Shown: piece by piece, positions 137 through 54,610 of the stretch | Position numbering within the stretch: position 1 is the first letter of the stretch | Layout of the letters: every line of letters begins with the position of its first letter | Notes under the pieces: model-generated | Database searches by the model: none | Told to the model about the DNA's origin: nothing | Seen by the model: the letters and a program-made list of their open reading frames with translations, nothing else | Program-made: the position numbers and the translations under genes | DNA from: Stentor roeselii | Lineage: Eukaryota; Ciliophora; Heterotrichea; Heterotrichida; Stentoridae | Assembly: GCA_006503475.1 (NCBI GenBank) | Contig: RSEH01000125.1 | Coordinates: 62,001 to 126,000 of the forward strand | DNA length: 64,000 bases | Reading direction: 5' to 3'

Positions 137-3100
137 TTATTGTCTTGTAAAAATCACTTTGGGTTCAGTTTTGTTGGTATCGTTAGTTGGAACAACCTGA
201 TTTTGAGGTCTCCTTGCTTTAAAAAACTTCTGAACTTTTTCTCTAATACTAAGAAAAGAAATATAAATCGATATCGAAATATTAACTCCCCAAATGGTAA
301 AAATCACGATCATGCAATCCTGCCCAGCTCTTTCCCAACTAATATTCGATCCAGATAAAAATTTAAACAGCATAATAAAAAAATAAGTAGAAATTAAAAG
401 TTCCGTAATAACATTCAGCACATTTATGAGTTCTTTTTTGAAGCATCGAGTCAGGAGTATATAAAAGCAGATCTGACTAAAATTTACAGTTAATGACAGA
501 ACAGCAGCAACAATTAATTGAAGATGATGATCAAATTTCAGTCTTATCATAAAAACGAGCATAAGTCTTCTTGCCATAAACAGGCCATAATACAAAGAAC
601 AAGAAATAGATTCTTCTTTAAACTCTTCAAAAAGTACTGAAAATTTTGTCTTTAGGTCTGTTCTAGTTGTAACACTTAAACTATTTGAAAGTCTCTTTAA
701 TATTATAAATACTGAAAAAAAACTGATAACTTGGAAAATCTATATCTTTCTTACAATAAATGCTAAACATACCAGTAAGTTAAAAACTTGCATGAAGTTT
801 GAGTAGTTTCGAAATTCTAAACCAAATGAACTCGCGAGAAGTAAGTCAAAATAACTTTGGATTAGAATTCGCAGAAAAACTCCATATTTGAAGTTACTTA
901 AAATTGCAAGAACTGACCATTTGATATTTTTTATCTTGCTCAGGCCAAACAAAAGTAATGAAACCAGTAAAAAAATTACTGTCATTGTCATTTGAATTCC
1001 ACAATTAAGCATCAAAATATTTGTTTTAAACCCATACTTATGCATTTTTTTCGGTAAAACAATTCCAAAAGACTCTGGAATAAGCAGACCAAAAATATTA
1101 GGAAAAGATGAATGTACTCTCAGTCCTAAAACAAATTCCATCAAAGGAGGATATAAATCAAGATTGAAAAAGTAAACCACATAAATCATTTCAGCAATAT
1201 TCAAAAAAGAGAAAATAGTCGTCAAATCTCTTGATAAAAGTGAAGCTGCACCAGCAGCAGAAACTCCAAAGTAAAGAGTAGTCTTCGCATTTATCAACGC
1301 TTCTTCCTTTTTAACTTTAACTTCAGAATTAGTTTCAATTTCTGTTGTTTCAAAAAGGCTAACTTTGATGGTTTCACTGAGCAACAAAGAGTTTTTCGTA
1401 GAAACCACGTCGTTGATGAAGTCAACTTTAGCAGAAGTTTCAGAATCTATGTCCTTGTTGAAAGTGAGCTCTAAGTTATATAAGGACGAGTTAATTCTTA
1501 CGACTTTTGCATCTTTTAGAGTGTCAGGAAGGACTGTTACCTTGATTTGATCATTTTTTAGAGAGAGGGACTCGGTAAATGACAGCCAAATTGTGTTGTT
1601 TTGAAAAATACCGAATTTAAAGGAAAATCTCAATCGAAAGCAGTTATTTTCAATTTCTTGATAGCCAAGTTCACATATGCAATGATTATTTGTGTCTAGT
1701 TTACTAAAATCCTTGCAGCTTGTACATATTGATTTAGTTTCACAGGTTACGCATAGTCCTTCGCATGGTAAACAAGTATTTTTTTCGTAGTAGGTTATGT
1801 TTTCACATTTTTTACAAAGATTTTCTTCGAGTACCCAATTTTCAACGCATAAATAACAGGAATTTTTATTGAAACTAAAGCATTCTAGACAGTTATCATC
1901 AGCACATAGGTTGCAAGTTAGATTATTCTTGCATCCATAAATGCATTCTTCGGGACACTCTTCACATATACTTAAAAGACTATATTGAGTAAGGTTACAA
2001 AGTGGTATACATTCATGACCAGCAGGTGAGATAGAACATCCTTTCGATTTTTTTTCAACCAAATTATCGATTCCAGGATCAAGTACATAAAGTTCAAACA
2101 TAAACATGAATCCTTTAAAACCATTAGTCCAGTCCTTAGCACTCCCTATGAAAATACTTGAAATTTCAACAGCAACAAAAGGTTTTTGACTAATTTCCTG
2201 AGAAGTCTCAACAACTCCATTTATGTAGAATCTTGTCAAAGAAGAACTTGAAGTATATTCAAGAACTATTAGTAAATGGTTCCAAGAGGTAATTGAAATA
2301 ATTCCTAATGATTTGCTTGTAAATAAAACTGAATCAATTAGAGTGATAAGCTTAACTTGCTTACTTGTTACAGAGATTTGCATACAGATGATGCTCTCTA
2401 GTTGTTTTTCTGCCAGGATAAAGTCAGATTGATCTGTGTTAATCCAAAAGGAAAATGAAAATTCAGTGCCAAATATGGTATAGTTTTCTACTGATACCTC
2501 AAGTCCCCTTGTTCCTATGAAGTAGACTCCTCGGTCCACCGACCCTGCAATATGAACTTTATCATCATAGTCAACGCTCGCAACCCACCCACTGACAGAT
2601 TCAAAGTAATTCCTTCCAGACCCTTCAAAATCAAACCTCAAAGCTGCAGGTTTCAAAGCCTGACAAACCCTAAGTTCATTACAAGAATACCCAAGAGGCT
2701 TGACCATGAAGCAGACCTGATCAACTAAGAAGTACTCACAAGCCAAACATTGAAAATATTCTTTTCCTGAACATGAAAAACAGTTAAAGGCGCAGGGGCT
2801 GCAAGCGTCTTGACTTTGCATTTCATTTAATTGAAAAAAATTAACTGAACATTTGCAACCATCAGAAGACAAGGCAAAAGAATTTTTTGCTTTGCAGGTC
2901 GTGCAAACATCATCTTTTGAGCAGCTTTCACAGTGGACGTGACATGATGAGCAAAGAGAATTTAACGAAGAAAGGTCAGGATTCGCATAAGTTCCGACTG
3001 GACAATAACATCCTTTTATATCTGACTGTAATGCTTGACTTGTAAGACATTCATCACAAGTCAAACCATTCGAGCATTTCGAGCAGTGACTATGACAAGG

Positions 3101-4366
3101 CTGACAAGCATCGGGATGATCCAAAGACTTCTCTAAATAAAACATCATCTTACACCCACACCTTCCTTCAATAATTTCAGTATTTTCCGCCCTACACGTG
3201 AGACATCCAGAAGCATCACAAGTCAAGCACTCATCATAACACAACCTGCAGTCAATCAAATCAGAGCTTCCAGCATTATACGCATTGCCAATACACTGAC
3301 ATCCCACATCCACTGGAACAGAATTTAAACTTTTACAAGTCGAGCAAGTGTTTGCATCGTCACAAGTGGCACAAGTCGAGTGACAACTCGAGCAACTATT
3401 CAAATTATTTAGAAAAAAACCAGGATCACAATAAACAGTGTTAATAATCAAACACTTTCGAACTCCGTTGATGTCTGCACAGCTGTTTGGGCTGCAGTTG
3501 CATGAATAACATTGACTTTTCTCAAAAGACGAGCAAGAAACTAACAAGCCACAATTACAAGTGTTTCCTTTCGAGTTCTTTTCAAGAGAATCTTCAATTT
3601 TTATACATCCTGTACCGAGTTCACTGTCAATTACTTGAATATTACAACTACAGGTACCTGAAAAACATTTATTTGATGTGCCGATTAACATGTAGTTGTT
3701 TATATCGATAAATTCATCTAAAATTAAAAAATTCCAGAGAAAGCCGATGAAAGAAGTTGAAGAAGTTGAACCGATTGTGGTGGACTTGGGTGTTGATGAG
3801 GACTCGGAATAAATGCAGCTTAATTTATTTTTATCTAGAAGGGTGGAACCTGAATAGAAGAAAAATTCGTTGTTTTTTATTTGAATAGTTGCAAGATTCC
3901 AAAGATCTGTTTAAGACTTACATGGAGAGTCTTCTGATTGAATATTGTATTTGTTTTTTTGGCAGTTATTTATGATTATGTGAATTTGGTAAGAATCTGA
4001 TTTAGTTATTCTTTCTATGAAAAGTTGAAAGAATGATGATTGGCGTGAAAATACTACATAGGTGGACTTGGAAGATTCTTGGAACCATTTACGCCAGAAA
4101 AGGATTGAAAAGGAAGTAGCGAGGTTGAAGGAACTTGTTTGGATATCGTTTGGAGGTAGGGTTATTTTTTTTGAACCACCTGATGAGTAAACACCTCGGT
4201 CGGTGCAGATCATCTCTTTGTTGTCGAGTGTTTTGCTGGCTCCGTTAACTGCATGTCGTACATTTCCAGAATAGTCATAAAAGATTTCTCCATAATTCTT
4301 GTAAAACTTGTATTCTACCAATTTTCCTGCAAGGGATAACTCGGCTAGGATAAAAAAAATCAACAT
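137..4366 (-). CDS. LamG-like / Cys-rich multi-pass membrane protein, paralog 1 (4 exons)
   Basis: Three 15-nt introns (3907-3921, 740-754, 473-487) join three open stretches into one frame of 1394 aa; total length minus 45 nt is divisible by three. Order: signal peptide, LamG/ConA-like domain with the 'TDRGVYS' strand (to about residue 250), long Cys-rich array of CxxC-type furin/growth-factor-receptor-like repeats, a second LamG-like domain ('DRGVYFIGTRGLEVS'), more Cys repeats, a beta-rich stretch, then about eight membrane helices. The start ATG at 4366 is preceded by TATATAA. The layout suggests a surface sensor or adhesion protein with a large ectodomain. The membrane part, with 'GVFLRILIQSYFDLLLA', loosely recalls fungal TRP/Pkd2-like proteins; that is inference. 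Two close paralogs follow upstream in the same orientation, and a fourth is at 51104. Gene structure is well supported by the paralogs; function is unknown. Confidence 0.88.
473..487 (-). other. 15-nt intron 3 of paralog 1 (stop-free)
   Basis: GTAAATTTTAGTCAG on the minus strand. It has no in-frame stop and could be read as five extra residues. All four paralogs have a 15-nt GT-AG segment at this exact position, and removing it gives L-S-L-T-I-C-F-Y, aligning with the spliced paralogs. Confidence 0.9.
740..754 (-). other. 15-nt intron 2 of paralog 1
   Basis: GTAAGAAAGATATAG on the minus strand, with an in-frame TAG. Removal joins A-F-I to I-F-Q-V, restoring the helix seen in the other tandem copies, which have an intron at the same place. 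Confidence 0.92.
3907..3921 (-). other. 15-nt intron 1 of paralog 1
   Basis: GTAAGTCTTAAACAG on the minus strand. It carries an in-frame TAA, so without splicing the frame ends at 3911. Removal gives P-Y-L-W-N, matching the P-Y-I-W-N and P-E-E-W-N junctions in the tandem paralogs. Confidence 0.93.
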
Positions 4367-4373
4367 TTATATA
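4367..4373 (-). promoter_or_regulatory. Start-proximal TATATAA motif of paralog 1
   Basis: TATATAA directly abuts the ATG. Paralog 2 has the same motif at the same place. It could be an initiator/TATA element with an ultra-short 5' leader; this is inference from its recurrence in the window. Confidence 0.45.
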
Positions 4374-7297: not shown

Positions 7298-10200
7298 TTA
7301 TTGCCTGGTAAAAATTATAGTCGACTGGCTAGCCTTTGCTTCTGTCATAGGAGCAATCTTAACTTGAATCTTAGTCTTGCAAATATTTTTAGCCTTTTGA
7401 TAGATATTAACGAAAGCAATGCACAATGAAATAAAAATATTAACTGCCCAAATGGTGAAAATAATATTTATGCAGTATTTTCCAGCATTTTTCCAGCTGG
7501 TATTTGCTTCAGGTAAGAACTTGAATAATAGTACAAAATAATACACAGAGATTAATAGCTCTATGATAGTATTCAGTGCATTCATCAGATCTTTCTTGAA
7601 GCATTTAGTTGAAAAGACGTAAATGCACACCTAAGTTTTAGGTACTGTTAAGGCCGCTACAGCGGCTAGTATTAATTGAATATAAGGATCGCATTTGAGT
7701 TTTATAACGAAAACTAGGAGTAGTCTTCTGAACATAAAAATGCAATAATAGAAATGATAAGATATAGAACCTTCTCTGAACTCATCAAAAAGTAATGAAA
7801 ATTTTATTTTGAGGTCTGTTTGACTGGTAATACTATAGCTATTCATCAATCTTTTCAAAATAATAAACACAGAGCACATACAAAATACTTGAAAAGCCTG
7901 CATAATTTTTACAACAAAAGCAAAACAAATGAGAAAATTAAACCCTTGAATAAAACTGGAGAACTCCCGATACTCCAACCCAAATGCACAAGCAAGAAGC
8001 AAATCAAAAAAGCTCTGAATCAAGATTCTAAGAAAAATTCCATATTTAAACCTCTTCAAAATTTCCAAAGCAAACTTTTTAAACTTCTTAAATTTTGTTA
8101 AACAAGTTAAAACCAAAAAAGCCACAAAAAAAACAGCAGCAAGTGTCAACTGAATTCCACAATTTAACATGAAAATATTTGTTTTAAAGCCATATTTGTG
8201 GTATTTACTCGGTAAAGCCACTCCAGTTGATTCTGGAATAAAAAAGCTGAAAATATTAGGAATAGATGAATGCACCCGCAAACCTAAAACAAATTCCGCA
8301 AAAGGAGGGTAAAGTTCTAGATTAAAAAAATAAACCGCATAAATCATTTCAGCGATGTTTAAAAAAGTGAAAACTGAGTTTAAATCTCCTGATAAAAGGG
8401 AAGCAGCTAAAGCTGCTGAGGCTCCAAGATAAGCTGTTGTTCTTGCATTGTTTCTTGCCTCTTCCATTTCCTGTTTAATATCATTATTATTCTTGATGTT
8501 TGTTGTTTGGAAAAGGTTGATCTTGAAACTTTTACTCAAAAGTAAAGAGTTTTTAGTTGAAATCACTTCTTTGATAAATTTGATTTTTGCTGAAGTTTCA
8601 GAATCGATGTCTTCTTTGAAGTTGAGTTCTAAGTTATACAAAAATGACTCAATTTTCACTAAATTTATATCTTTTAGCTTGTTTGGTGAAAGTTTTACCT
8701 TTATTTGATCTTTTTTTAAAATAAGGGATTCGTTGAATGACAGCCAAACTGTGTTATTCTGAAAAACTCCGAATTTTAATGAAAAAAAAATTCGTGTGCA
8801 GTTATCTGAGACTTGTTGGTATCCTTGATCACATGAACAGAGTCCTGATGCTTCTAATGAACTTAAATTCTTGCAACTTGTGCAAATTGACTTGCTTTCG
8901 CATGTCAGGCAAAGTCCTTCACATGGCACACATGATGCGTTTTTGTAGTAAGTTGAATTTTCACATTTTTGGCAAAGGTTTTCTTTAACTATCCAGTTTT
9001 CGTCACAGATTGAACAGGACTTTTCATTGAATGTGGAACATTCTAAACAGTTTTCGTCTGTGCATAAGTTGCATGTTAGATTATTTTTGCAACCGTTTAT
9101 GCAACTGGATGGACACTCTTTACAACTATCTTCATCTGAATACTGAGTCAAATTGCAAAGAGGGATGCAATCCTGACGAGCAGGTACAATCGAGCAGCTT
9201 TTAACTTTATCATCAACCAGATTTTCAACTCCAGGGTCCAGCACATAAAGTTCAAACTTGAAAATAAACCCTTTAAATCCATTTGTCCAGTTCATAGCGC
9301 TTCCAATGAAAAGACTTGAGTTGTCCACAGCGACAAAAGGCTTTTGGCTGATTTCCACTGAAGGTTCTTCAACTCTATTGATATAAAACCTTGTCTTCGA
9401 AGAGCTTTTAAAGTATTCGAGAACTATCAGTAAATGGTTCCAAGTAGAAAATTCGATACTTTTTGTTGATCTGCTTGTGAATGAAACTGAATCAATCAAA
9501 GTGATAAGCTTAACTTTCTTGTTCAGGACTGCGACTTGCACACAAACAGTGCTTTCTAGTTTTTTCTCTATTAATGTAAAGTCAGAGAGATTTGTATTGA
9601 TCCAAACAGAAAAACTAAACTCAGTTCCTAACATTGTTAAGTTTTCAACTGAAACTTCTAGTCCTCTCGTTCCAAAGAGATAGACTCCTCGGTCCATAGT
9701 CCCAGCAATATGAACTTTGCCATCATAGTCCACCTTCGCAACTCCTCCACTGAGTGACTCAAAATAATTCCTTCCAGATCCTTCAAAAGAAAAACTCAAA
9801 GCAGCTGGTTTCAAAGCTTGACAAACGCGAAGGTCATTACAAGCATACCCGAGAGGTTGGATCATGAAACAGATTTGATCGACTAGGAAGAAGTCACAAG
9901 CCAAACATTCAAAGTATTCTTTTCCTGTGCATGAAGAACAACTAGAAGGGCAAGCACTGCACTCTTGACTTTCAATTAAAATGTTTAGGAAAAAATAATC
10001 AGGACATTTGCAACCTTCTTTTATGTCGGGTTCAGCTTTCAATGCTTTACATTTGGTGCAGATGGCTTCTTTTGAACAAGTTTCACAGTGAATGTGACAT
10101 GATGAGCAGAGTGAGTCTTCTGAAGAAAGGGAAGAGGATGTGTAGGTTCCAGTTGGGCAAATGCAACCTTGAACTGGAGATGGGATTGCATTGGCACTTA

Positions 10201-11236
10201 GACATTCATCACAAATCAAATCTTCCGAGCATTCAGAACAATCACTATGACAAGCTTGACACTTAGATTCACCTTCAGGAAGATAGTATCCAGCCTGACA
10301 ACTAACACTACTAATCATCATACATTTCCTAACTCCATTAACATCAAAGCAACTATTAGGGTTGCAGTTACAAGAGTAGCATTGCGTTTTATCAAAAGGC
10401 GAGCAAGAAACTTCCAACCCACAGTCACAAATATTCCCAACCGAATTTTTCCCAATATTATCATCACTTTTTATACACCCAGTTCCAAGTTCACTATCAA
10501 TGACCTGAATACTACAACTGCATGTCCCTACAAAGCATTTCTTCGATGCACCAACAAGCATATAATAATTTCTATCGACGAATTCATCTAAAATCAAAAA
10601 GTTCCAAATAAATCCAATAAAAGAACTTGAAGAAGTCGAACCAATTGTCGTTGTTTTGGGTGTTGATGAAGACTCGAAATAACTGCAGCTTAATGGTTTT
10701 GAATCAAGTAGGGTGGAACCTGCGTAGAAGTAAAAATCGATGATTTTTATTTGAAAAATCATCAGATTCCAAATATCTGTTTAAGTTTTACATGGAGAGT
10801 CATCGGAGGGAATGTGGTATTTCTTTGTTTGGCAGTTGTTTATGTTGATTTGAACCTCGAAAGAATTCGGCTGTGTAATTCTTTCTATGGAAAGTTGAAA
10901 GAATGATGATTGGCGATCGAAAATCGTGTAAATTGACCTGGAGGATTCTTGGAACCATTTTCGCCAGAATAGGATTGAAAAGGAAGAAGGAAGGTCGAAG
11001 GAAGTTGTTTGGATATTATTAGGAGGAAGAGTTATTGTTTTAGAACCTCCTGAGGAGTATATTCCTCGGTCTGTGCTGATCATTTCATGAGAATCAGTAT
11101 TTTCACTGTCTCCATTGACGCCATGTCTAGCATTTCCTGAATAATCGTAAAAGATTTCTCCGTAGTTCTTGTAAAACTTATACTCGACCAACTTCTCTGA
11201 TAAAGTTCTTGCAATAAGTATGTAAAGAACTAGCAT
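7298..11236 (-). CDS. LamG-like / Cys-rich multi-pass membrane protein, paralog 2 (4 exons)
   Basis: Three 15-nt introns (10777-10791, 7898-7912, 7631-7645) give one frame of 1297 aa. It has the same domain order as paralog 1: signal peptide, first LamG-like domain with 'STDRGIYSSGG', Cys-rich repeats, second LamG-like domain with 'MDRGVYLFGTRGLEVS', Cys repeats, beta-rich stretch, about eight membrane helices, and a short tail ending I-I-F-T-R-Q, almost the same as paralog 1 (V-I-F-T-R-Q). The Cys-rich array is shorter by about two repeats (about 100 aa), which accounts for the length difference. TATATAA precedes the ATG at 11236. Many identical stretches with paralog 1 indicate fairly recent duplication. 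A surface receptor or adhesion role is inference. Confidence 0.88.
7631..7645 (-). other. 15-nt intron 3 of paralog 2
   Basis: GTACCTAAAACTTAG on the minus strand, ending in an in-frame TAG. Removal gives A-L-T-V-C-I-Y-V. In this copy the intron holds a stop; at the same position in the others it does not. Confidence 0.93.
7898..7912 (-). other. 15-nt intron 2 of paralog 2 (stop-free)
   Basis: GTAAAAATTATGCAG on the minus strand. It is in frame and readable as V-K-I-M-Q. Removal gives A-F-V-A-F-Q-V, aligning with the spliced helix of paralog 1. Confidence 0.88.
10777..10791 (-). other. 15-nt intron 1 of paralog 2
   Basis: GTAAAACTTAAACAG on the minus strand, with an in-frame TAA. Removal gives P-Y-I-W-N-L. 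Position conserved in all four paralogs. Confidence 0.93.
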
Positions 11237-13904: not shown

Positions 13905-16900
13905 TTAATATTTTGTATTTCTGCTCACATCATCAGTCTTCGAAACCGTGAATGGGGTAATCTGAGTGACTTGTTTCTTCTTACAGACCCTCTTAATAAT
14001 TTCAATGATTTTTCCAATAGTAATAAGTGTGGTAAGTCCAATATTGACTCCCCAAACAGTAAAAATCAAATTAATACAATGTTTGTTTTCTTCTTTCCAG
14101 GTGGTTTTCGCTTCAGGAAGGAACTTGAAAAGCATCATGAAGAAGTAAGCAGCCAACAACATCTCAGTTAAAACATTCAAAACATTCATCAACCGAGATT
14201 TAAAGCATTTCGTGATAAAAACATAAAGACCAGCCTGCCTAACCTTTACAGTAATCGAAAAAGTCGCTGAGACTATCAACTGAATGAACTGGTCCAGTTC
14301 AAATTGAATCATTCCAACAATCACTAATCTTCTCACAATATAAATCAAGTAAAACAAATAAAAAGCACTCGGACCATCATCAAACTCAGCAAAAACAACT
14401 GAAAACTTCTCTTTAAAAGCTTTTTTTTCCTCCTCATCATTAATCCTTCTCCATTTCCTCAGAATCAAAAAAGCACCAAAAACAGAAAAAACCAAAAAAA
14501 CCTGAATAAATCTTACCAGAAGTCCCAAACAAAACAAAAAGTTAAAAATTTGTAAAAAATTCGAAAAATCATGAAAGTTCAGCCCAGCAAAGCAAGCCAA
14601 CAACAGATCAAAGTAGCTCTGAACCAAAAGCCTCAAAAAAGCTCCAAATTTAAAATAAGAGTAAATCGGATTAACCGTATTTTTAAACTTATTCACTTTG
14701 CTCAAACAGAAAAGAACAAGAAAAGCGGCTAAAAAAGAAAGAAAAAAAGTGAATTGAATCCCGCAGTTAAGAAGCAAAAGATTTGTTTTAAATCCGTATT
14801 TTTGAATTTTTTCGGTAACTTTATACCTAAATCACTTGCTATGATGTACTTGAAGATGTTTGGAGCTGAGGAGTGGACTCGGAGTCCTAAAAGAAACTCG
14901 ACTAACGGTGAGTAGATCTCCATGTTGAAGAAGTAAACTGAGTAGATCATTTCTGCTATGTTAAGAAAAGTAAAGATCGAGTTCAGGTCTCCTGAGAATA
15001 AAGATGCTGCCCCTGCTGCCGATGCGCCGACATATGCTGTTGTTTCAGCGGTTTTTTTAGCTTTTTTTTCTTCTACCTTGATTTTTTGCTCTTCTTTCGC
15101 AGTTTCGGTTACGAAAAGATCAAGTTCTATTGTTTTGTTTAGAAGTAAGGAGTTTTTGGTTGAATATATTGGAGAGATGAAATTGATTTTTACTCTGCTG
15201 TTCTCAGTAGGGATTTCTTCTAATTCTATTTCTAAGTTGTATAAAGTACTAGAAAGTTTTACAAGATTTAGAGATTTTAGCACAGAGTAGGAGATTTTTA
15301 ATTTTATTTGACTGAGTTTGATTTCTAGAGACTCGTTGAATCTTACCCAGATTGTATTGTTTTGGAAAATGCCGAAGACGAAAGTAAAATATTTTCTCTT
15401 GCAGGTAGCTTTATCTTGAGTATAACCAGAATCACAAACACATTCCTTATCCTTGTTAACACTTGAGTTATTCTTACAGCTAGTACATATATCTTTACTT
15501 TCACAGGTAATACACAAACCTATGCACTCCACACAAGACCTTTCTTGATAAAAAGTAGTATTTTTGCATTTAACACAAAGTCCTTGATCTTGCACCCAGC
15601 CATCATCACACACAACACAAGACTCAGTATTATAACTCGAACATTCTAAGCAGTAATCATCAGCACATAAGCTGCAAGTTTTATGATCTTTACATCCCAG
15701 TTTGCAATTTGAAGGGCAGTCTTCACAGATCCCATCAAGGGAAAATTGAGTAACATTGCAACGAGGGATGCAATCAAGTCCTGCAGGTAAAACTTGACAA
15801 TTTGGATAACCTGAGCTAACCAAATTGTTCATTCCAGGGTCCAGGACATAAAATTCCATCAGATAAATGAACCCTTTAAAACAATTTGAAGAGTTTGAGT
15901 CACTTCCGATGAAAAGACTGGAATTATCTTGGTTAAAAAATGGCTTCGTCGTGAGTTCCACAGATTTTCCAAGTACTCCATTCAGATGGATACATGCTGA
16001 AGTCGCTTTTAAATCATAATTGAGGACCACTATCAAATGATTCCAACTTCCTTGAATAAGACTTGATTCTGAATAGGTTGAATAATACTTCTTATCAATA
16101 AAAACAGTGAAATTTAATACACGTTCTTGAATAGAAACTCGAACATTGTAAAGATCACTTCCTTTTTGAACTAAGACGAAGTCAGACCTATCAGGGTTGA
16201 CCCAGAGAGCAAAAGTGAACTCAGTCCCGAACATAGTAAAGTTTTCTAGAGATACCTGAAGCCCTGCCCCTCCAAAAAAGTAAACTCCTCGATCGAAAGT
16301 CGCTACAAATTGACTCTGCTCTTTTAAAATTGCTACTTCTTTTCTAATCCTGTCAAAATATTGAGTACCTGAGCCTTGAAAGTCGAATCTTAGAACTGCT
16401 GAAGTGTTTCCTGAGCAGTTTCTTGTTGAGTCGCATGAATAGCCAATTGGTTGAATTTCGAAACAGATATTGTCAATCATCCAGTTTTGGCAAGAAAGGC
16501 AGTTGAAATAAGCTGAGCCGTTGCATGTTAGACATGTATCTGAACAAGGAGAGCAGGCATCAGCATTATTTAAATCCTTTGTCTTATAAAATTTTCCAAG
16601 ACATTCACATCCTTCAACAGATGCAGGAGCTGAGTTCAGCGCTTTACACCCTAAACAAGTTTTAGAATTATTACATTCACTGCAGTCAGCATGGCAATCA
16701 AGACATAAAGAACCAGTTTCATTAAATTTCCCAGAAGGAAAAAATCCAGCTGAACAATTGCATCCTTCAGTATCTTTCGGCCTCGCTCCAGAAGTAATGC
16801 ATTCCTGACAAATTAATGATGATTGACAAGTTAAACAATGACTGTGACATGGCTGACACCCCTCTGGATCTGAAAAAGTTGAATTCATATAAAATTTCTG

Positions 16901-18157
16901 ATTGCAAATACAATTTGAACCTTGAGGGAAGGAATTATGAGAAATGCAAGTTAAGCATGATGTTGAATTAGTGCAGGTCGCACATATATCCATACATTTA
17001 GTACAGATTGTTGAAGTAGTTAAAGTAGATGCTCCAAAAGTGCCTTGGATGCACTTGCATCCTGTAGTGTCTGGTATTGAGAATTCACCTGCACATGTAA
17101 TGCAAGTAGTATCACTTAAACAAGTTTTACATGAATCTGGACAAACATGGCAGGTTCCTGATATAAGATACTCATGTGATTTACAACTACTTTGAGCGGT
17201 ATTCATGCAAGATTCAGTTCCTTTTACATCTACACAATTACTAGGATTACAATTGCATGTATAACATAAAGCTTTATTGTAAGAGGAGCAGGATATCTCT
17301 TTCGAAACTTCTAATTTTCCATCTTTACTCAAAGCTTTGCACCCACAGTCTTCACCTTTCGAATTTTTTTCTTTACCGTCTTCTTTTTTGATGCACCCTG
17401 TTCCGAGTTCGCTATCAACAACAATCCTCGTACACGAGCAAGTCGATCCTAAAACACAAACAGCAGAAGTCCCAGAACTAATAAAAGAGGTATAAACATT
17501 AACCTGATCTAGTATAACAAAGTTCCAAATAAACCCTTTAAACGATTTCGGGTCTCCAGTATTCGCTCCAATCAAAGTAGTTAAAGTACCACTAGTTTCT
17601 GCATAAGTACAGGGAACTGTAACCTTAATCACTTCAGTTAACCCAAGAATAAGTCTTACTTGGTTACCACTGACTTCAAAAGTGACCATATTCCATTCTT
17701 CTAATTATCAGTTACCTGGCAATAAATCTTTGTAAATATTTGAACTATACTTTCCACATGCTTGATTAAATATAAAAGAAAGATCATGAACTTTTGAATT
17801 CCTTTGAAGGTAGATGTCAAAACTTCCGAATCGTCTTGAAAACACAATGTATTGAATTTTAGTTAAATCTGGCTTCCATTTACGCCAGAATATCAAACTG
17901 AACACTGATGGCAAGTTAAAGGATTGCGTCGCTATATTATTTGGAGGGAAAGTTATCCTCTCAGTAGTTCCATCTGAATGCACTCCTCGGTCTGTGCAAA
18001 TCATCTCAAACGTATCTGAGGTACTGTTCAAACCATTCACTGCATGTCGACCATTACCAGAAAAATCGTAAAATATTTCACCGTAGCTCTTGTAAAACTT
18101 GTACTCTAAAATCTTTGCTGCAAATGAAAAAGAGACCAGGATGCACAGAAGTGACAT
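13905..18157 (-). CDS. LamG-like / Cys-rich multi-pass membrane protein, paralog 3 (frame broken once)
   Basis: Three 15-nt introns (17701-17715, 14502-14516, 14235-14249) lie at the same positions as in paralogs 1 and 2. After splicing, length is one base short of a multiple of three. The break is in an A6 tract (plus-strand T6 at about 14809-14814): upstream the frame reads L-P-K-K, and only the next frame reads K-Y-G-F-K-T-N as in the paralogs. A homopolymer under-call, a real mutation, or slippage at the A-run are all possible. Domains match the family: signal peptide, LamG-like, a Cys array longer than in paralog 2, second LamG-like ('FDRGVYFFGGAGLQVS'), Cys repeats, beta-rich part, about eight helices. 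It is the most diverged of the three tandem copies. CATAA precedes the ATG. Confidence 0.85.
14235..14249 (-). other. 15-nt intron 3 of paralog 3 (stop-free)
   Basis: GTAAAGGTTAGGCAG on the minus strand, readable as V-K-V-R-Q. Removal gives S-I-T-A-G-L-Y-V at the position shared by all four paralogs. Confidence 0.88.
14502..14516 (-). other. 15-nt intron 2 of paralog 3 (stop-free)
   Basis: GTAAGATTTATTCAG on the minus strand, readable as V-R-F-I-Q. Removal gives L-L-V-F-L-V-F, aligned with paralogs 1 and 2. Confidence 0.87.
17701..17715 (-). other. 15-nt intron 1 of paralog 3
   Basis: GTAACTGATAATTAG on the minus strand; read through, it leads to a stop. Removal gives P-E-E-W-N-M-V at the conserved junction. 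Confidence 0.93.
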
Positions 18158-34575: not shown

Positions 34576-34858
34576 CAAATTAATTTTAAGTCGCATCGAT
34601 CTTAAAAACTTTTTTGAGTCCTTGTCTTATTTTCACTTAAATAAAAATCTTTGAATGTAACAAGTAAAACTAAACCAAGTCCTTTTATAATTATTAAATT
34701 TCTGAAAAATCTCTAAATTATAACTACTCTCCTTCAATACACCCGAAAAAATATACCTCTTATCAGTTAGATTTAACACTAATTTTCTCACTAAAATTAT
34801 ACTCTTCTTTCTGTTCACAACGACTAAATCGCTAAAAAAAGGCCTCTGGATATAAAAT
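34576..34858. other. Leader region of the CCCH gene
   Basis: AT-rich, no gene supported. TATAAA at 34851-34856 sits 2 nt before the ATG of the CCCH gene. Confidence 0.5.
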
Positions 34859-43500: not shown

Positions 43501-45031
43501 CTGCGGATTCTGGCTGCAAGTTCAAGACATTCGTGATAAAAAAAGAAAAACTGTTTAATATCCCAGAACCTTCTACTTTTTTTTGTGATGTTAACAGCTC
43601 TAAAAGACCAACAACTAAAACCTTATAATTTTTTTCCATTTTTTCTTGTAAAACCATGAAAATTCCATCAATCATTTGAAATTTCATTAAATACTCTAAA
43701 GTTTTATCAACATTCGCATTTTTTATCCCTTCCCTGATCCAGTCATTAAACATTTTCAGATACTTTTCACTTCTATTCTCCCTTAAGTTACTTAAAATGC
43801 TATCAAACATACTTTTCGACTTACATTCAACTTCAAACAAAGCATTCCAGATATTTTTCCAAATTTCATTGACAATGCCGAAGCGATTTGAAAAAATCTG
43901 TTGATGAAAAAGCATATTTCCAAGAGAGAAGTCAGAAATACTTGCTTTGATGACTTGAACTGAAGCATAAAAAGAATAAATAAATTCCAGGATGTAAAGA
44001 ATCAAGACTTCATTTTTTTCAGACTGAGTAAAAAGTACCTGATTAAGGACAACGTGAAAAATAATCAAAGGAATGTTCCAGGCCGTTTGATCTTTTTCAT
44101 TAGATTTCGAGATATACTTAAAAAAAGTAAAAATCTGAAAAAAAAGAGATGCCAGCTGGTTTGAGTCTTTTTTGAAAGAAATTGCTTTTATTCCAATGAT
44201 TTCGAAGTTATGGATGAAATCGACTACTAGAACTTTGAACTTTTCACCACAAGTTGAAAGCATTTTCGATCCGAAATTTTTCTGTTTTTCAGTCAATCGA
44301 TTAATAAACTCAAGAATCATCAAAAATCGCTCAAAAATCAAAAATTTTTCATTTGAATCAAGAAAACTTCGGCTCAGGTCAAGTTCGACACTCGTCATAA
44401 GTTCAAAAAGACTAGCAAAGGTCTTCCCTTCATTCCAGTCTTTTTTACTTTTCTGAATAATTCCACAGAAAATCGCTAAAAAACCTGTCAAAAACTCAGA
44501 AAATCCTTGATTTTCCTTTAAAACCTTGATTTTTTTATAGTTTTCACTTTTTTTTAAGTTCAAACAAGTTTCATGAAAGATACTTTCCACTTTTTCTTCA
44601 TGTTTTGAGTGAAAATAAGTTAAATTCACAGAACTTTTACTAAAGTTGACAAGGTTTGAGACTGTTGAGAAAATATTTTGGCAGAAAGAGTCTGGGGTAG
44701 ACATGAGAAATGAAAGCAAACCGAAGAGGGCTTCGATTAAGTCAATAAAAGACTTGACGTGCTTGAACTTCTTGTTTTGGACAAGGTGGTGGCCTAAGGA
44801 AAGCAGCGGGTTTAAAGTTTCGAAGAAGTTCGGCACTTCAGAAGGCCTGGAGTTTAAAAATGAAATCAGTCTGGGGAAAAAACTCCTTTGAAAAGAAGTT
44901 TTGAATAGAAAGGGACTTGGAAGATGAGCTTCACATCTGATGCAAAACATTGAAATCGCCTCGATTGAATTATAGGATGTGCATTCGTTCCAGAAGACTT
45001 CTAATGAAGCTGTAGACTTTGTAGTTGACAT
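37568..45031 (-). CDS. BEACH-WD40 giant protein (neurobeachin/LRBA/LvsA-like)
   Basis: 2487 aa from the ATG at 45031 (upstream codons open only with TTG). Order: helical armadillo-like N-terminus, ConA/LamG-like domain about 775-930 ('FSIIFWVFLDFS', 'NSWNFVCINFS'), long helical stretch, PH-BEACH about 1720-1820, BEACH about 1850-2115 ('YPIFPWILSDYRSG', 'YHHGSHYSNGGIVLHYLVR', 'LVPELFFNGLIL', 'DLIFGFKQIG'), WD40 propeller about 2225-2470. Family members govern membrane traffic, lysosome size, contractile-vacuole function and receptor delivery. GTACTTTTTACTCAG at 44024-44038 (minus) fits the intron pattern and is stop-free; it is unproved. Confidence 0.92.
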   Translation of the reverse strand: MSTTKSTASLEVFWNECTSYNSIEAISMFCIRCEAHLPSPFLFKTSFQRSFFPRLISFLNSRPSEVPNFFETLNPLLSLGHHLVQNKKFKHVKSFIDLIEALFGLLSFLMSTPDSFCQNIFSTVSNLVNFSKSSVNLTYFHSKHEEKVESIFHETCLNLKKSENYKKIKVLKENQGFSEFLTGFLAIFCGIIQKSKKDWNEGKTFASLFELMTSVELDLSRSFLDSNEKFLIFERFLMILEFINRLTEKQKNFGSKMLSTCGEKFKVLVVDFIHNFEIIGIKAISFKKDSNQLASLFFQIFTFFKYISKSNEKDQTAWNIPLIIFHVVLNQVLFTQSEKNEVLILYILEFIYSFYASVQVIKASISDFSLGNMLFHQQIFSNRFGIVNEIWKNIWNALFEVECKSKSMFDSILSNLRENRSEKYLKMFNDWIREGIKNANVDKTLEYLMKFQMIDGIFMVLQEKMEKNYKVLVVGLLELLTSQKKVEGSGILNSFSFFITNVLNLQPESAEIYQPIIVNYLKMHNIEVFHHWIKSLNTVKNDLIAKTLVESFLLYIEIADDSFLYSRGVDGEVFECLSTFAGEIFDSSFWMFVILSLLRLVSRPSFEYLDSPLHSFLPLLNQLRQKANIREIAEDVKELLKEALFNKDTWIIRFPQLIPLYGEVLMSSVERDFREFEIKRLKTSEINIDLLSKHGFFAVIMKNIQSFHIWKSCETLSLQIISSNFSTSDLSLWVQTFQSSKNSALKASLLETLKSGVNKLSSSEKILKYAYFTVNNKIFLDFFNENYYLPKDFSIIFWVFLDFSEKSSIFSFRHSGETTEIFVAFSSVIVKIQSQEESFEGLLNNSWNFVCINFSMKIQVFINGNLLENNEKKWKPVKPGKLEKCCIGNNCAFNAKNCYLVGKIASLVILKKTVDINFVQNFWIQSQKLWNQDLIENDLVLVDLLDEKNFKKETCQGVYFFRKTPAYHAFKVYGIRRFMHEVHCFIDDDETLQEFFKLIKVLVFINQMDHEYFTKQSINFLVFLMAKARYSEEISEVFISIFELFSESQLKYIQSIINYNTTLKLFLQSSPKFFQFFIQKFIQMNPATKPNLLTLTEILSDSLPDSFSEILTLYLSHQESTTLEESLPSLISLLSDQKNYETLQKVLISLKKIPLTRSMLGILLSIFSNSHPISLQLSVFDLIFLSNPNKPSPEVFHQLLDYIDEFLPSDLSPEFLEYLLTNSFDLNSSQSKFFLRLLTKRLRFFNSLEYQKVILASFVENKDQVFEVALKHESFPGFLLDVQSCCENSSENNKFVEVLLEIAAEKEGTLQIRTYLDATKDINLFKHLIQKFALTPSVNSVLQSFEVLQEQLAEKPEAISEICENLQGPFIVQLAKKSLENFKVSALRGKIEDLKDFLTNFLNFLVFGLSVFRGFGMRFEFFRRFLENQEIQFFERDESQLKTSQIFFSVYLLIELLKKYLEGCEALKEDLIFFIFQANLQEKLGKFCEKHTNVVKNSLRDVICNQSILEINRETIESKVESKLNLFIHQQQRLKSLIDCYDLENSEIFTDTQVLNEIIQVFEYLFQRFVVKLSEAPFNPEPIIHSTPLSQEDLEKWSKDFKDQSWASDFSEEREKKNLKLFQDCYFFSKSLKNLKKLQTFPRSPPCKVRQKYDKFFRWSTFKASCLKSNNPQKSSSFKSLSEAPVVYINLHETGQSTDGNCDSANFSDNSSRPSRENTYKASKSFKAFSSSVFWVERIQVQGSSLAKLSLSPQFFDLHFEGLVKSPETTGALAFTRLAQQKRRVWQADEFLEVLPKRFLHKHTALEFVLNSGKSYYLNFFTTRKRDQALKVLNTWKAATLCFGTSKVLQSLKNDWKQGKITNFEYLMTLNRFASRSLNDISQYPIFPWILSDYRSGLLDFNDKKLFRDLKFPVGAQKLEYQALLQEKIESWKDDFLEPYHHGSHYSNGGIVLHYLVRVEPFSTQAKNLQGGNFDIPDRLFFSMSLAWESCIENMGTDNKELVPELFFNGLILENASGQYLGINSLGVDVSSVKPPDWAVNNWDFIVKHRNLLESEMVSRDLNFWIDLIFGFKQIGKNALASFNVFNSVTYEGLFEDFLERHENIEFNSMIEQVYHFGQTPQVLFEGKAHPAREEGWKNMNFYNFFYFNTGKDLAFKPVEKGFGVNGNLIFFYMGADFVLFVKEVKGFCYLCRILIKNSLEIVSVLPEVQLTCYFPELSSSFHYILTDFSYRAFELSSFNNSFSVVLDKFLIAGLDRSFDIKVFDMKGKLLNNLSFHSQIILTVTSSSDQLFSGSFDCSIKSWHLEKDSFIRSFTFFGHEAPVISLKIIQSFQVLVSLSAEGRVLIHDTKNAECLNSLIFPAFLMDVNENGIVLLASRSKVLVVGINCETVSEFEVENDLESVQISPCANFCIEAYSDEVVLRDIFSLNTERCEKIEGFRFRNVLMHRGELGFMYWAQGGTDAIVGALRYVSLKKLENKNEIILDLI

Positions 45032-45210: not shown

Positions 45211-46554
45211 CTAAAGATCCACCTTATACTCCTGTTTTATATGCGAAAACACAAAATCCTTAACCCTTCCCACAGTCCTTTCCTCTAAAAACTCAAAGAT
45301 CTCAACTCTTTCCCTTCCTTTAAAATAAAGTCGAATAGTCGGAAATCCTTTAACATCTTTCCCAATCTGATTATTATACCCGTCAATCTTCCCAACCTTA
45401 AAGTTCTTCAAATTTCTCAAGTCATACGACAGCTGCTCCACCATAACCAGAGCAGCTTTAGAGTAGCTACACCAAGGCGCATAAACCAAAACTAAAAAAT
45501 GTTCATTCGAGTCTAATACCACACTTTTAAAAGTCTCTTGAACCACAGCAAATACTAAATTTTCATTCATTTTTTTCGGGATTTCTTGAGTCAATACAAA
45601 AGGTCTTACAAATTGATTTTCCCAGTTATTAACGAATTTCAAGATATTTTCCTGAGTGATGACGTCAGACAAGTCAAATTGTGTGACATTCAAACTTCCT
45701 CCACGACATTCAATAATTCTAAGAACGGGTAGTTTTTTATCAGGGATTCTTAAAACTTCCTGAACTTGTTTACCAAGTGGAAAACTGACATCGACGACCA
45801 TCAAGTAAAGCTTTCCTCTAAGTTGTTCTTCAAGATTTTCCAGTTCAAAGTCAAGGTACTTATGTTTCCTTTCTCTAATCAAAACCACTGCATTTCCTCC
45901 TGAATTGAAAAGCTTGTCCAGGTACTTTCTTTCCATCGGCAGTAAATACACTGACAGGTGGTGTCGAAGGAAAGACTCGATTTGTTGAAGCTCTAAACTT
46001 GAATTGTACTCGACTACCTTCTCTCCAAACTTCTGAAATAACGTCAAAGAGCGACTGCCTTCAACTGAAAAAACCTGAAGTTCAACAAAATCAATTCTTC
46101 TCGACAGTTCATTAAGCAGGTTAAATTCAAGTCCTTTTCCAATCAAGCAGTTTTCATATTCAACACAAAGTTCTTCATGCGCTCTTAGCTGTGACTTTCC
46201 CATTTCATAAAGAACGACTTGGGGATGGGCTCTTCCTTTTACCCACTTTTCAATGTTTTCAGATGTTTTTTCATCTTCAAAGACAAGGGTAAGGTTATCA
46301 TGTTTATAGATGATTTGTGGAAAGGACTTGAATTTCAAGGCACTTGTTTTTAAACTCGCGTCGAATTTGTAAGAAGGGATTGAAAGGGCTGAGAAGATAG
46401 GTTCAAGAATTTCAAGAGTTTTCAAAGACACTGAGCTGAATGGACGTTACCACCAGTCAACGTAATAAACCACGAAAGCTTCAGAGTCCTGAGTCCACTT
46501 CTCATAAGAAACAAGTTCAAAGGCCTGTGCGAGGACCAAAGAAATGAAGATCAT
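45211..46554 (-). CDS. ER thioredoxin-fold protein with two CxxS sites and KVDL tail (ERp44/PDI-like)
   Basis: 442 aa from two exons; intron 46436-46450 splits the codon of the first active-site Cys. Exon 1 (ATG 46554, signal peptide 'MIFISLVLAQA') ends in W-W-stop unless spliced. After splicing the first thioredoxin domain reads 'VYYVDWCSVSLK' (C35-x-x-S38). The C-terminal domain has 'VYAPWCSYSKAA' (C357-x-x-S360) and the cis-Pro loop 'GFPTIRLYF'. The last four residues are KVDL, an ER-retrieval variant of KDEL. Both sites have Ser where PDI has the resolving Cys, as in ERp44 (CRFS), which traps clients by mixed disulfide. A thiol-retention or quality-control role is inferred. CTATAA lies at 46557-46562. 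Confidence 0.87.
46436..46450 (-). other. 15-nt intron in the CxxS thioredoxin gene
   Basis: GTAACGTCCATTCAG on the minus strand. Unspliced, the frame stops at once (TAA in the first intron codons). Splicing makes TG|C, the first active-site cysteine. Confidence 0.93.
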
Positions 46555-46562: not shown

Positions 46563-47213
46563 CTATTTACTTAAAAGTCGTCGTTTCGGTGATAAGACTG
46601 ACACGAACTTCGGAGGAATCATCACTTTCACTGCATTAGACATACCTGGCAATTGAATAAAGTTATACTCAGACATCGCTGAACTACGAGTACGTTGAGA
46701 TGTTTGAAACCTGGGAATGTGAAGACTGTGAAAAATTATCAAGTTGTCATTGTCGATACAAGTGAATTTCTCGTCGTATATCAGAATTGGCTTTGAACTG
46801 ATAATCACCAGTTCAAAAACCTTCTTTGAATGAGTTTCTTGAAGAGGATACTCGCTTTCAAGACTGAAAACAAATGAAAAAATACAGTCGGATACTTCAA
46901 ATGGACTCTCGTGGTAAAGGTCGCGGAATACTTTGCATCGAGGACTTCTTGAAAGGATTTTTTCTAAAAGATGTTTCAGATCTGATGAAACTTTCACTTT
47001 TGTGTAAAGGTTTATTGGGAAAAGGAAATAATTTGAGTACTTTAAAGGAATTGAAGAAGTTGATATCAGGGTTTTTGACTTTTTTTTCTGGTGAAGGTTT
47101 GTCTGAGGAAGACGTTTCAGAGGACGGCTACCGAAAATGCCGTTGGTTTTTATTATTGCGCAGGAGTTGGTTGGAAGGAATTTGAATGATGAGAGATCTG
47201 ATTGGGTTTGCAT
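46563..47213 (-). CDS. Hypothetical protein
   Basis: 216 aa as read, 211 if the stop-free 15-nt segment at 46631-46645 is an intron. No domain recognised. Middle part 'VKVSSDLKHLLEKILSRSP' then beta-like 'FELVIISSKPILIYDEKF', 'NLIIFHSLHI'. 'ccataaaaca' precedes the ATG, like other starts here. Its TAG lies only 8 nt before the ATG of the thioredoxin gene on the same strand. Codon use resembles the neighbours. A shorter plus-strand frame across it is taken as a shadow. Confidence 0.65.
   Translation of the reverse strand: MQTQSDLSSFKFLPTNSCAIIKTNGIFGSRPLKRLPQTNLHQKKKSKTLISTSSIPLKYSNYFLFPINLYTKVKVSSDLKHLLEKILSRSPRCKVFRDLYHESPFEVSDCIFSFVFSLESEYPLQETHSKKVFELVIISSKPILIYDEKFTCIDNDNLIIFHSLHIPRFQTSQRTRSSAMSEYNFIQLPGMSNAVKVMIPPKFVSVLSPKRRLLSK
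46631..46645 (-). other. Probable 15-nt intron (stop-free)
   Basis: GTATGTCTAATGCAG on the minus strand fits GTA-N6-A-N2-YAG. Removal gives L-P-V-K-V-M-I-P. No paralog to confirm it. Confidence 0.6.
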
Positions 47214-51103: not shown

Positions 51104-54100
51104 ATGAACTTTTACATGCTTTTCTTCATGCTTAACCAGGCAAAATCAAGTGAAATATTAGTTCACAAGTTCAGTGAAAACTTCGGGGAAATTTTTTACG
51201 ATTTCTCAGAAAACGAACGAATGAGTATTAACGGGTTGAGCTCTTCCACAAAGTTAAAAAACGTTTTAGCGACTGACCGAGGAGTTTATTTTCCAATAGG
51301 CGATGCAACAATAACTCTTCCTCCCAACAACCTTTCATCATTTTCAGGACTTTCAGGGTATTTTTCTGTGATTTTCTGGACTTTTATAGAAGATTATTCT
51401 TTTTACCTTTTGAGTTTTAAAACATCGAATGGTTTCGTGTATTTAAAAAGATTTTCAGTGAACCAGAATTTGGCTTTTCGAGTAAAATCTGTGAATTTTG
51501 ATAGCTTTGAGAAGACTAGCGGGGCGAATTCTTTTGTTTATGGTAAAAAGTACTTAGGGATGTGGAATTTAGTAGTTTTTAGCATTGGGCCTAATGCGAA
51601 GCTGATGATAAATCAGGGTGTTGCTGCTAATGTCGCTCTGGAAACCGTTTTTTCGTTAAGTCAGTTTATTAGTTGCAATATTGGAGAAAAAGATTATTTG
51701 ACTTCTATTGTGGGATTTTTTTATTATTTTGTTATCACTGATAATGATCCTGGTTTCGGGAATTATTTGGCTCCTGGGTCTAATGTTTGCTTGAAAAATG
51801 CTTGTGGTCCTTGCTTGTTCTCGGTTAAGGATGGAGATCGTGTTGGGTGTCTTTCTGATAATAGGAACCCTTTTCAGAATGAATTGGGAAATGATTGTGT
51901 TAACTGTCCTGAAGGATGCTCGGGGTCTAGGTGTTTAATATGTGATTCTTGCGGGTTTAATACCTGCCTACTTGAATCAGATCAAGTCATCTGCAAATGT
52001 CCTCCAGGTTCAACTTTAATCTCCAACAACTGCAAATGTGACTCAGGTCGATACCCATCAGGGTACAGCTGTCCAAAGTGCCTTCCAGAGTGTTCAACAT
52101 GTGAATCAGGTTCATCATGTCTTTCCTGCATATCAGAAAACACAGACCTGATAAATTCCTTCTGTTCCTGCAAGAAGAACTTCTACAACCTAACAAGTCT
52201 AACCTTTCAAGACTCATGCAAGCCCTGCGCAAACGAATGCGAACTATGCGACTCATCAGGTCTCTGCTTAAAATGCAAAGATTCTCAAGGAGACCTGTCA
52301 AAAAACTGTGAATGTCCATCAGGTTACTTCCAAGATAAAAAATGTTCAAAGTGTTACCCAGAGTGCCAAGAATGTTCATCATTCGGGTCCTGTTTATCAT
52401 GCATTTCTCAAAACGCAGTCCCCAAGTCCTTCGGCTGTGAATGCAATGAAGGATATGGAAGTTCTTCTACTCTAACCTCCTTCGACTCCTGCTCCAAATG
52501 TGAAGAAAAATGCCGAACCTGCACTTCCACCAACTGTAAAACATGTAAAGATTCAAATGCTTTTCCTCCAAATTGTGAATGTAAAGACGGCTTTTTTAGT
52601 AAAAATGATGAATGTGTTCCATGTTCGACTGACTGTAAAAATTGCACTGAAAGTAAATGTTTTGAATGTTGGGATAACTTAGCCTTGCCAGTTTCAGAAG
52701 TCTGCAGTTGTGGAGAAGGTTCATTCGCAATTAAAAAAAATCCACTTGTCTGTCAGAAATGTCGAGATGATTGCTTGACGTGCTCTGATAGGTCTACTTG
52801 TGATGAGTGCTTAATTCTTGGAGCTGTTAAACGGGTCGTTGGCTGTAGTTGTGAAGAAAGGTTTTACAGTGATTCAGTGAAATGTGTTAAATGTGAGACT
52901 TGGAATGAAAAACTGAAAAGTTGCGTTTTTTGTCAGAAGGATCAGTTTTTTTTTAATGGCATTTGCCAAGGATGTCCTGATCTGTGCAAGACCTGCTCTG
53001 CTGATGGGTGCTCTGAATGTGTGAAAAACGCGAAATTGAAGGGAAATGACTGTTTTTGTGAGGATATGTTTGAAGGGGTTAGCCAATGTCAGCCGAAGGA
53101 TTTTAAGTTGGATTTGATGACTGACCAGCTGCAGGTTCAGCTGGTCTTCACTGTTGACTTGTCGAAAAACCTGATCAAATCTGATGTAAAGATCCAGATT
53201 CCTCTTTCTTTCGATTTTTCCTTGAAAAAAATCACTCACAGGTTCTTCATACTTGAAATCGACTCAAGTGAATCCTGGACTTCTTCTTTGAAAGGCTCGC
53301 TGACCTTCACACATCCGATTTTTTCGATATTCAACCAGTCCTTAGAAGATAAAAAATTCATCTTCCTCCTTCCTGCCTCCTCGAAAAGTACAACGAAAAC
53401 TCAGGTCGTTAAAGCTTTTACATCAACTACCCAGTCTAACTTCTACGCTGCTTTTTCAATCACGATTTTTTTGTCTATCATTAACTTCAACTTTGTGTCG
53501 ATGTGGAACTTTTTGAACTCTGTACAAATTTTGGTGTATTTAAGACTTATTAATGTCGAATTGCCTTTGAAACTTGATACCATCTTGAAGGCGTTGAAGG
53601 ACTGTACGAATTTTTTTAATGTTTTTGAGTATTTTATTGACTCTCGAGACTTTTCGAGGATGACTGGAGTTTTTTTTCAGTTCGGGTTTGAAACTTCTAG
53701 TTTTTTTTTGAATCAGGGGCATTTGGTCAGTGTTTTTGTTATGGTTTTAGTCAATTTTGCACTTGCTGTGGTACTTAAGAAAATGCAGAGGTTTAAAGTG
53801 ATGCAGATTAATTGGATGAAGGAACTGGTTGATGATTTTTACAGTAGTTTTAAATATAGTGCGTTTATTAGGTACTTGATACAGACTTATCTGGACTTTG
53901 CTGTTAATTGTGCCTTGGCTTTGATGCGTATTGGAGTTAGTTCAGTAAATGAAATAATCAATCTGATAATTTGTTTGCTACTAGCAGCATTTATATTATT
54001 CATACCAGCAAAAGCAGCAGTTTTCACAAACCAAAGTAAAGAAAAAATCCGATCAGGTAACCAAAAGTTACTCGAAGAATACGGTTCATTATTTTACGAG

Positions 54101-54610
54101 TTCACCAACGACTCAAGCCTGATGACCTCATATTTTTACTGTTTTTTTTTCCTAAGAAGAATTCTTTACGTGATAATTTTATTCAGCCTGACAGAATTCA
54201 GCAAAATCCAGCTAGTTTTAATCATTTTCCTTACATTCTTAGTAAGTTTTACGCAGTTTTTTGTATATCTCTGTATTTACCAGCCTTACTCCGAGAAGCT
54301 AATAACTTACGGAAACATCGTAACCGAATTTTCTATAATGTCTTTGTTAGTGCTTGTTTTGGTAAACGAGGTATCAAGAAGTTTGATAAATAAAGAGCTT
54401 CTAGACATTTCTTTGACTTCTTTGATTTACTTCGTTTTTTTCATACAAACTTTATCACCTTTCATGGTTTTTTTGAAGAAGATAAAAAAGCTTCTCGTTG
54501 AAAAATGTTGCAAGAAAAACACTGAAAAGGTTCAAGATCAACTTTCTGATTCAAGACTTCAAAACTTCAGCTACCCTACTAAAAGAGTTTATCCTTGGAG
54601 TAAAGAGTAG
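51104..54610 (+). CDS. LamG-like / Cys-rich multi-pass membrane protein, paralog 4 (3 exons)
   Basis: 1168 aa as read; 1158 aa after removing two stop-free 15-nt introns (51543-51557, 54242-54256), both at positions used in the tandem paralogs. Signal peptide, N-terminal LamG-like domain ('FSENFGEIFYDFSENERMSINGL', close to paralog 1 'YKNYGEIFYDYSGN'; 'ATDRGVYFPIG'), Cys-rich repeats about 230-665, beta-rich stretch about 670-765, then about eight helices. Unlike paralogs 1-3 it has no second LamG-like domain and no middle intron. It is an older, separate lineage of the family, about 33 kb from the array. TTATAA at 51092-51097 precedes the ATG. Surface sensor or adhesion role inferred. Confidence 0.9.
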   Translation: MNFYMLFFMLNQAKSSEILVHKFSENFGEIFYDFSENERMSINGLSSSTKLKNVLATDRGVYFPIGDATITLPPNNLSSFSGLSGYFSVIFWTFIEDYSFYLLSFKTSNGFVYLKRFSVNQNLAFRVKSVNFDSFEKTSGANSFVYGKKYLGMWNLVVFSIGPNAKLMINQGVAANVALETVFSLSQFISCNIGEKDYLTSIVGFFYYFVITDNDPGFGNYLAPGSNVCLKNACGPCLFSVKDGDRVGCLSDNRNPFQNELGNDCVNCPEGCSGSRCLICDSCGFNTCLLESDQVICKCPPGSTLISNNCKCDSGRYPSGYSCPKCLPECSTCESGSSCLSCISENTDLINSFCSCKKNFYNLTSLTFQDSCKPCANECELCDSSGLCLKCKDSQGDLSKNCECPSGYFQDKKCSKCYPECQECSSFGSCLSCISQNAVPKSFGCECNEGYGSSSTLTSFDSCSKCEEKCRTCTSTNCKTCKDSNAFPPNCECKDGFFSKNDECVPCSTDCKNCTESKCFECWDNLALPVSEVCSCGEGSFAIKKNPLVCQKCRDDCLTCSDRSTCDECLILGAVKRVVGCSCEERFYSDSVKCVKCETWNEKLKSCVFCQKDQFFFNGICQGCPDLCKTCSADGCSECVKNAKLKGNDCFCEDMFEGVSQCQPKDFKLDLMTDQLQVQLVFTVDLSKNLIKSDVKIQIPLSFDFSLKKITHRFFILEIDSSESWTSSLKGSLTFTHPIFSIFNQSLEDKKFIFLLPASSKSTTKTQVVKAFTSTTQSNFYAAFSITIFLSIINFNFVSMWNFLNSVQILVYLRLINVELPLKLDTILKALKDCTNFFNVFEYFIDSRDFSRMTGVFFQFGFETSSFFLNQGHLVSVFVMVLVNFALAVVLKKMQRFKVMQINWMKELVDDFYSSFKYSAFIRYLIQTYLDFAVNCALALMRIGVSSVNEIINLIICLLLAAFILFIPAKAAVFTNQSKEKIRSGNQKLLEEYGSLFYEFTNDSSLMTSYFYCFFFLRRILYVIILFSLTEFSKIQLVLIIFLTFLVSFTQFFVYLCIYQPYSEKLITYGNIVTEFSIMSLLVLVLVNEVSRSLINKELLDISLTSLIYFVFFIQTLSPFMVFLKKIKKLLVEKCCKKNTEKVQDQLSDSRLQNFSYPTKRVYPWSKE
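51543..51557 (+). other. 15-nt intron 1 of paralog 4 (stop-free)
   Basis: GTAAAAAGTACTTAG. Removal gives V-Y-G-M-W-N-L, aligning with P-Y-L-W-N-L of paralog 1. Invisible to frame-based calling. Confidence 0.87.
54242..54256 (+). other. 15-nt intron 2 of paralog 4 (stop-free)
   Basis: GTAAGTTTTACGCAG. Removal gives L-T-F-L-F-F-V-Y-L, at the same place as intron 3 of paralogs 1-3. Confidence 0.88.

Follow-up and report, generated by a model that had tools for sequence, protein, structure and literature searches.

Thirteen 15-nt stretches in the 64,000-base window (the whole stretch of DNA analysed here, G+C 35%) had been put forward in a preliminary description as introns of a single strict form, which raises the question of whether they are spliced out at all, how far their motif identifies them and what the adenine at their position 10 (A10) stands for. 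The 15-mers at all thirteen coordinates fit GTA-N6-A-N2-YAG as claimed, with GTA at the start and AG at the end in 13/13. Eleven lie on the minus strand, so that the start listed for them is the 3' end of the intron, and two lie on the plus strand. Very probably, they are ordinary U2-type spliceosomal introns of the known 15-nt kind in a Stentor-like heterotrich. We infer their excision from in-frame stops and from the alignment of paralogues, and draw the putative roles of the spliceosome, of a branch at A10 and of a lariat from the literature or by inference.

Eleven of the thirteen sites come from a single gene family of four copies, at three intron positions, and the thirteen cases are therefore not independent. 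Copies A, B and C stand in a row on the minus strand and copy D follows after about 33 kb, on the plus strand. Intron 1 falls at the same codon in A, B, C and D (phase 1), intron 2 is present in A, B and C (phase 0) and intron 3 in all four copies (phase 0). In the lines below, "3n" denotes a length that is a multiple of three and "gain" the increase in alignment score brought by splicing, measured against the stop-carrying copy.

137..4366, minus strand: paralogue A, Cys-rich, with C-terminal hydrophobic stretches (by eye) and a Laminin_G_3-like stretch just under the Pfam cut-off
3907..3921, minus strand: intron 1 of A; in-frame TAA; sole frame-restoring 3n GT..AG excision (9-42 nt) in the searched flanks; paralogue alignment
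740..754, minus strand: intron 2 of A; in-frame TAG; best of three candidates in the joint alignment; called by the gene finder as 33 nt with an identical 3' end
473..487, minus strand: intron 3 of A; stopless; codon and phase of the stop-carrying intron 3 of B; gain 14 against B
7298..11236, minus strand: paralogue B, by paralogue alignment
10777..10791, minus strand: intron 1 of B; in-frame TAA; sole frame-restoring 3n excision in the searched flanks
7898..7912, minus strand: intron 2 of B; stopless; homologue of the stop-carrying intron 2 of A; gain 11
7631..7645, minus strand: intron 3 of B; in-frame TAG; best of two candidates in the joint alignment; called by the gene finder as 30 nt with an identical 3' end
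13905..18157, minus strand: paralogue C, with a one-base break of the reading frame near 14810
17701..17715, minus strand: intron 1 of C; two in-frame stops if retained; best of three candidates
14502..14516, minus strand: intron 2 of C; stopless; homologue of the stop-carrying intron 2 of A; gain 15
14235..14249, minus strand: intron 3 of C; stopless; homologue of the stop-carrying intron 3 of B; gain 10
51104..54610, plus strand: paralogue D, without intron 2
51543..51557, plus strand: intron 1 of D; stopless; same codon and phase 1 as intron 1 of A, B and C; weak alignment
54242..54256, plus strand: intron 3 of D; stopless; shares its column and phase 0 with the stop-carrying intron 3 of B; gain 9

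The preliminary description counted thirteen supported introns. Judged from stops and paralogue positions, twelve of them are supported, and the remaining one, at 46631-46645, has the motif alone. Six of the thirteen place a stop in the reading frame if they are retained (740, 3907, 7631, 10777, 17701 and 46436), and six more (473, 7898, 14235, 14502, 51543 and 54242) are stopless and share codon and phase with an intron that carries a stop in a paralogue. Each of the three family positions has at least one stop-carrying copy (intron 1 in A, B and C, intron 2 in A, intron 3 in B), next to which the stopless copies can be set (intron 2 in B and C, intron 3 in A, C and D, intron 1 in D). The gains of 9 to 15 given above for five of these stopless copies were each obtained at three flank sizes. 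Besides, the flanks were searched jointly for 3n GT..AG excisions of 9-42 nt, with neither A10 nor a length of 15 used as a criterion, and the top-scoring joint choice was the 15-mers at introns 2 and 3 and, in A, B and C, at intron 1, the margin at intron 3 being thin (784 versus 782 with A, C and D unspliced).

Alignment gives weak support to intron 1 of D. Its gain varies with flank size (+16, 0 and +4), and in the joint search another excision scores higher than the 15-mer (342 versus 324), perhaps because it removes part of an insertion specific to D. As in A, B and C, the D 15-mer splits the codon two residues before a shared WN, and it is mainly this agreement in codon and phase that speaks for an intron. 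At the site of intron 2, D aligns without a gap across the join, which may reflect either the exact loss of this intron from D or its gain in the ancestor of A, B and C.

A length of 15 nt was taken for all twelve supported introns, with boundaries set by stops and paralogues; alternatives to these boundaries are an 18-nt excision at 46450 and the competing excision at intron 1 of D. A gene finder with free intron length (9-40 nt; genes scoring at least 25 listed) returned 15 nt, among the listed genes, at only four of the six stop-carrying introns, gave 33 and 30 nt with unchanged 3' ends at the other two (740 and 7631), and called no stopless site. The nine further introns of 23-38 nt that it placed in the listed genes are taken as artefacts; several of them fuse adjacent genes. 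Across the window it proposed neither 16-nt introns nor 15-nt introns with the A elsewhere, and fewer than one 16-nt intron would be expected among twelve. The gene finder also proposed a 23-nt intron at 14849 (paralogue C); we do not favour it, because C continues in line with A and B (...GIKLPKK) beyond it, before the frame break. That break, near 14810 on the minus strand, lies in or near a run of A and may be a sequencing error, a polymorphism or a sign of decay.

The two sites outside the family lie close together on the minus strand.

45211..46554, minus strand: protein-disulfide-isomerase-like gene, spliced at 46450-46436
46436..46450, minus strand: intron of this gene; in-frame TAA if retained
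46631..46645, minus strand: claimed intron, unsupported; motif only; stopless if retained; no stop-carrying paralogous intron

The disulfide-isomerase-like gene matches PDI chains in PDB (8.9e-26) and Pfam Thioredoxin (9.5e-14), both from exon 2, and the end of exon 1 alone is weakly thioredoxin-like (E 0.42). Splicing of 46436-46450 connects the long ORF with an N terminus whose ATG is at 46554 (...VVYYVDW followed by CSVSLKT); the 18-nt alternative starts 3 nt upstream and also keeps the frame. Around 46631, the ORF 46563-47213 gave no Pfam match at E 0.01, contains no TGG and has a codon score of 0.097 per codon, which is low and exceeded by one antisense frame.

Could the 15-mers be chance matches to the motif in coding sequence, picked for their likeness? 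In the window, both strands included, the 15-nt A10 motif occurs 21 times, against a mean of 9.37 in 100 dinucleotide shuffles of the 64,000 bases (sd 2.80, largest 16). The same motif with C, G or T at position 10 is not in excess (19 observed versus 19.87 in shuffles), and the 16-nt counterpart of the motif, with the A at 11, is found 12 times for 9.84 expected, a count that 31 shuffles reach. The clear excess is thus that of 15 nt with A at position 10. Eight matches remain beyond the thirteen listed, and they are distributed as follows.

54723, 63221 and 63818: three unclaimed matches antisense to genes
34713: one unclaimed match between genes
17869-17883, 37047-37061 (plus strand), 44024-44038 (minus strand) and 62053-62067 (plus strand): four unclaimed matches on the sense strand of genes

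These eight, set beside the 9.37 expected, speak for chance, as does the match at 17869-17883, which is coding since it sits in a codon run, FWRKW, common to paralogues A, B and C. The matches at 37047, 44024 and 62053 are stopless, leave the frame open whether spliced or not and may be unrecognised introns or chance. Chance may also account for 46631-46645. As an explanation of the thirteen sites, however, it is highly improbable, because six of them put in-frame stops into genes and six more coincide in codon and phase with such a copy, where a match by chance has a probability of about 7e-5 per position and strand. What falls is the proposal that introns can be told by eye, through the motif, from matches that arise by chance: with 21 matches versus 9.4 by chance, we reject the motif alone as an intron caller.

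The adenine at position 10 is present in all thirteen claimed and all twelve supported introns, and position 10 is alone invariant among positions 4-12, in interiors that contain 35% A and in which A or T fills 75 of the 104 places (72%) at positions 4-9, 11 and 12 of the thirteen sites. Twelve out of twelve would have a probability of 3e-6 if all introns were independent and of 2.2e-5 by exchange of letters within introns. With one intron per independent site (four sites), the value is 0.022, and correcting for the fact that the column was chosen raises it to 0.20, short of significance. A better argument than the count is the divergence of the paralogues, which agree with each other in 15/15 comparisons at position 10 versus 53/120 at positions 4-9, 11 and 12 (22/48, 13/24 and 18/48). 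At 3907 and 10777 (intron 1 of A and of B), the sole in-frame stop includes A10, so that selection by stop favours this base; such mild ascertainment bias is confined to these two, the other ten supported introns being free of it. The strictness of the fit, on which the preliminary description insisted, holds for 12/12 supported introns here but is not general: among the 8,806 introns annotated in Stentor coeruleus, 8,173 have 15 nt and 633 have 16 nt, and 168 of the 8,173 carry the A elsewhere than at position 10 (PMC9505925).

The preliminary description also took A10 as the natural branch-point candidate, in line with the literature (PMC9505925, PMC10946202): Nuadthaisong et al. 2022 proposed it for S. 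coeruleus (PMC9505925), and Slabodnick et al. 2017 are credited with a branch-point proposal for the conserved A (according to PMC10946202). In S. coeruleus, 8,005 introns carry the presumed branch A at position 10 and 442 carry it at position 11, and the 16-nt introns, about 7%, mostly have it at 11 (PMC9505925). In the corresponding mechanism, the GTA start would base-pair first with U1 and next with U6, and A10, which mostly follows a TT at positions 8 and 9, would bulge out of the pairing with U2 as the branch-point adenosine. Branching at A10 would then leave a lariat loop of 10 nt, with a tail of 5 nt reaching the YAG 3' splice site. We consider it improbable that A10 is instead fixed by, say, a protein contact or a spacing need while the true branch base varies. 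Some introns do have other As nearby, at positions 8, 9 or 11, and no lariat mapping was found in the portions of the literature consulted; yet none of these neighbouring positions is invariant and the published proposals name A10 as the branch point.

Besides its probable role as branch point, A10 might be part of a ruler. As a tentative and rather doubtful proposal, the heterotrich spliceosome may take the 15-nt A10 intron as one rigid unit, in which the spacings of 9 nt between the 5' splice site and the branch and of 5 nt to the 3' splice site outweigh the interior sequence, so that in-frame stops would be free to be present or absent. In-frame stops are absent from six of the twelve supported introns.

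A reading in which the window is germline sequence and the 15-mers are internal eliminated sequences rather than introns seems barely conceivable. Short intragenic pieces of this sort occur in some ciliates (26-28 bp in Paramecium, PMC9942806), but the GT..AG ends, the length and A10 are those of the published Stentor intron class. That 15-nt introns are known from Stentor was rightly stated in the preliminary description, and citing papers attribute the first report to Slabodnick et al. 2017. Heterotrich introns are about 95% of 15 bp and the remainder of 16 (PMC11441545). The introns of S. coeruleus share with ours the length of 15 nt, a GUA start termed stringently conserved, the AG end, A10, richness in AU (75.63% there) and the lack of a strong G at the last exon base (PMC9505925), which is G in 4/12 supported introns here. 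They differ in being a genome-wide set that includes 16-nt and A-elsewhere introns, neither of which the gene finder proposed here. Genes with supported introns are 5 of 21 in the window, near the 18.14% published for S. coeruleus (PMC9505925). In the compact genome of the heterotrich Blepharisma stoltei, introns of 15 and 16 bp predominate, but this species reads UGA as Trp (PMC9942806). Loxodes magnus, from the sister group of heterotrichs, also has very short introns, but with a mode of 17 bp and a negligible share under 16 bp (PMC11441545).

The genetic code fits the same lineage. The main ORFs run up to 3,612 codons without TGA, reading TGA as sense adds upstream stretches only, and TGG is used 157 times in 14,223 codons of long ORFs (ORFs chosen stop-free). 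A Blepharisma code with UGA as Trp is not favoured, the long ORFs being TGA-free while TGG is in use; the standard code is also attributed to one species of Blepharisma (PMC6879139). The 21 gene ends comprise 17 TAA, 4 TAG and no TGA. Since UGA is the stop in about 9% of S. coeruleus genes (PMC6879139), such an absence has a probability of 0.14 at this usage and would also be expected of a code with rare sense TGA. The low TGA stop use is compatible with Stentor and does not alone show TGA to be a stop here; code and stop use together fit a Stentor-like heterotrich, which is the natural source of the window. The Rfam search of the window gave no match at gathering score, with no snRNA and no rRNA. 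Scanning viral_contigs with the long exon of paralogue A gave no pattern match and scanning genome_contigs with the BEACH protein gave 28 pattern matches, none of them confirmed; a ciliate relative is unlikely in either collection.

Two other genes of the window deserve mention in their own right. The uninterrupted 3,612-aa ORF at 19993-30831 (minus strand), with 11 TIG stretches, two G8, a CEMIP beta-helix and PA14 matches, encodes what we take to be a fibrocystin-L-like protein. At 57722-58675 (minus strand), a protein matches Pfam Dicty_CAR, the slime mold cAMP receptor family (E 7.9e-16). In addition, a 130-nt unit is present three times at 34213-34583 (spacings 124 and 117), over the end of a PGAP1-like gene and past it.

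To conclude, the 15-nt A10 introns of this window are real, ordinary for their lineage and already known. As the S. coeruleus and heterotrich papers cover the pattern, the intron length, the motif, the position of the A and its interpretation are already in print, and the window leaves the published picture unchanged. It provides a small independent check, in which the interiors of paralogous introns have diverged and A10 has not, and in which one intron is missing from a paralogue that aligns gap-free across the join. For annotation, six of the twelve 3n introns being stopless, the motif alone or an open frame alone mis-calls them. To our knowledge, 15-nt introns are among the shortest spliceosomal introns, and they bound what a spliceosome can fold into a lariat.
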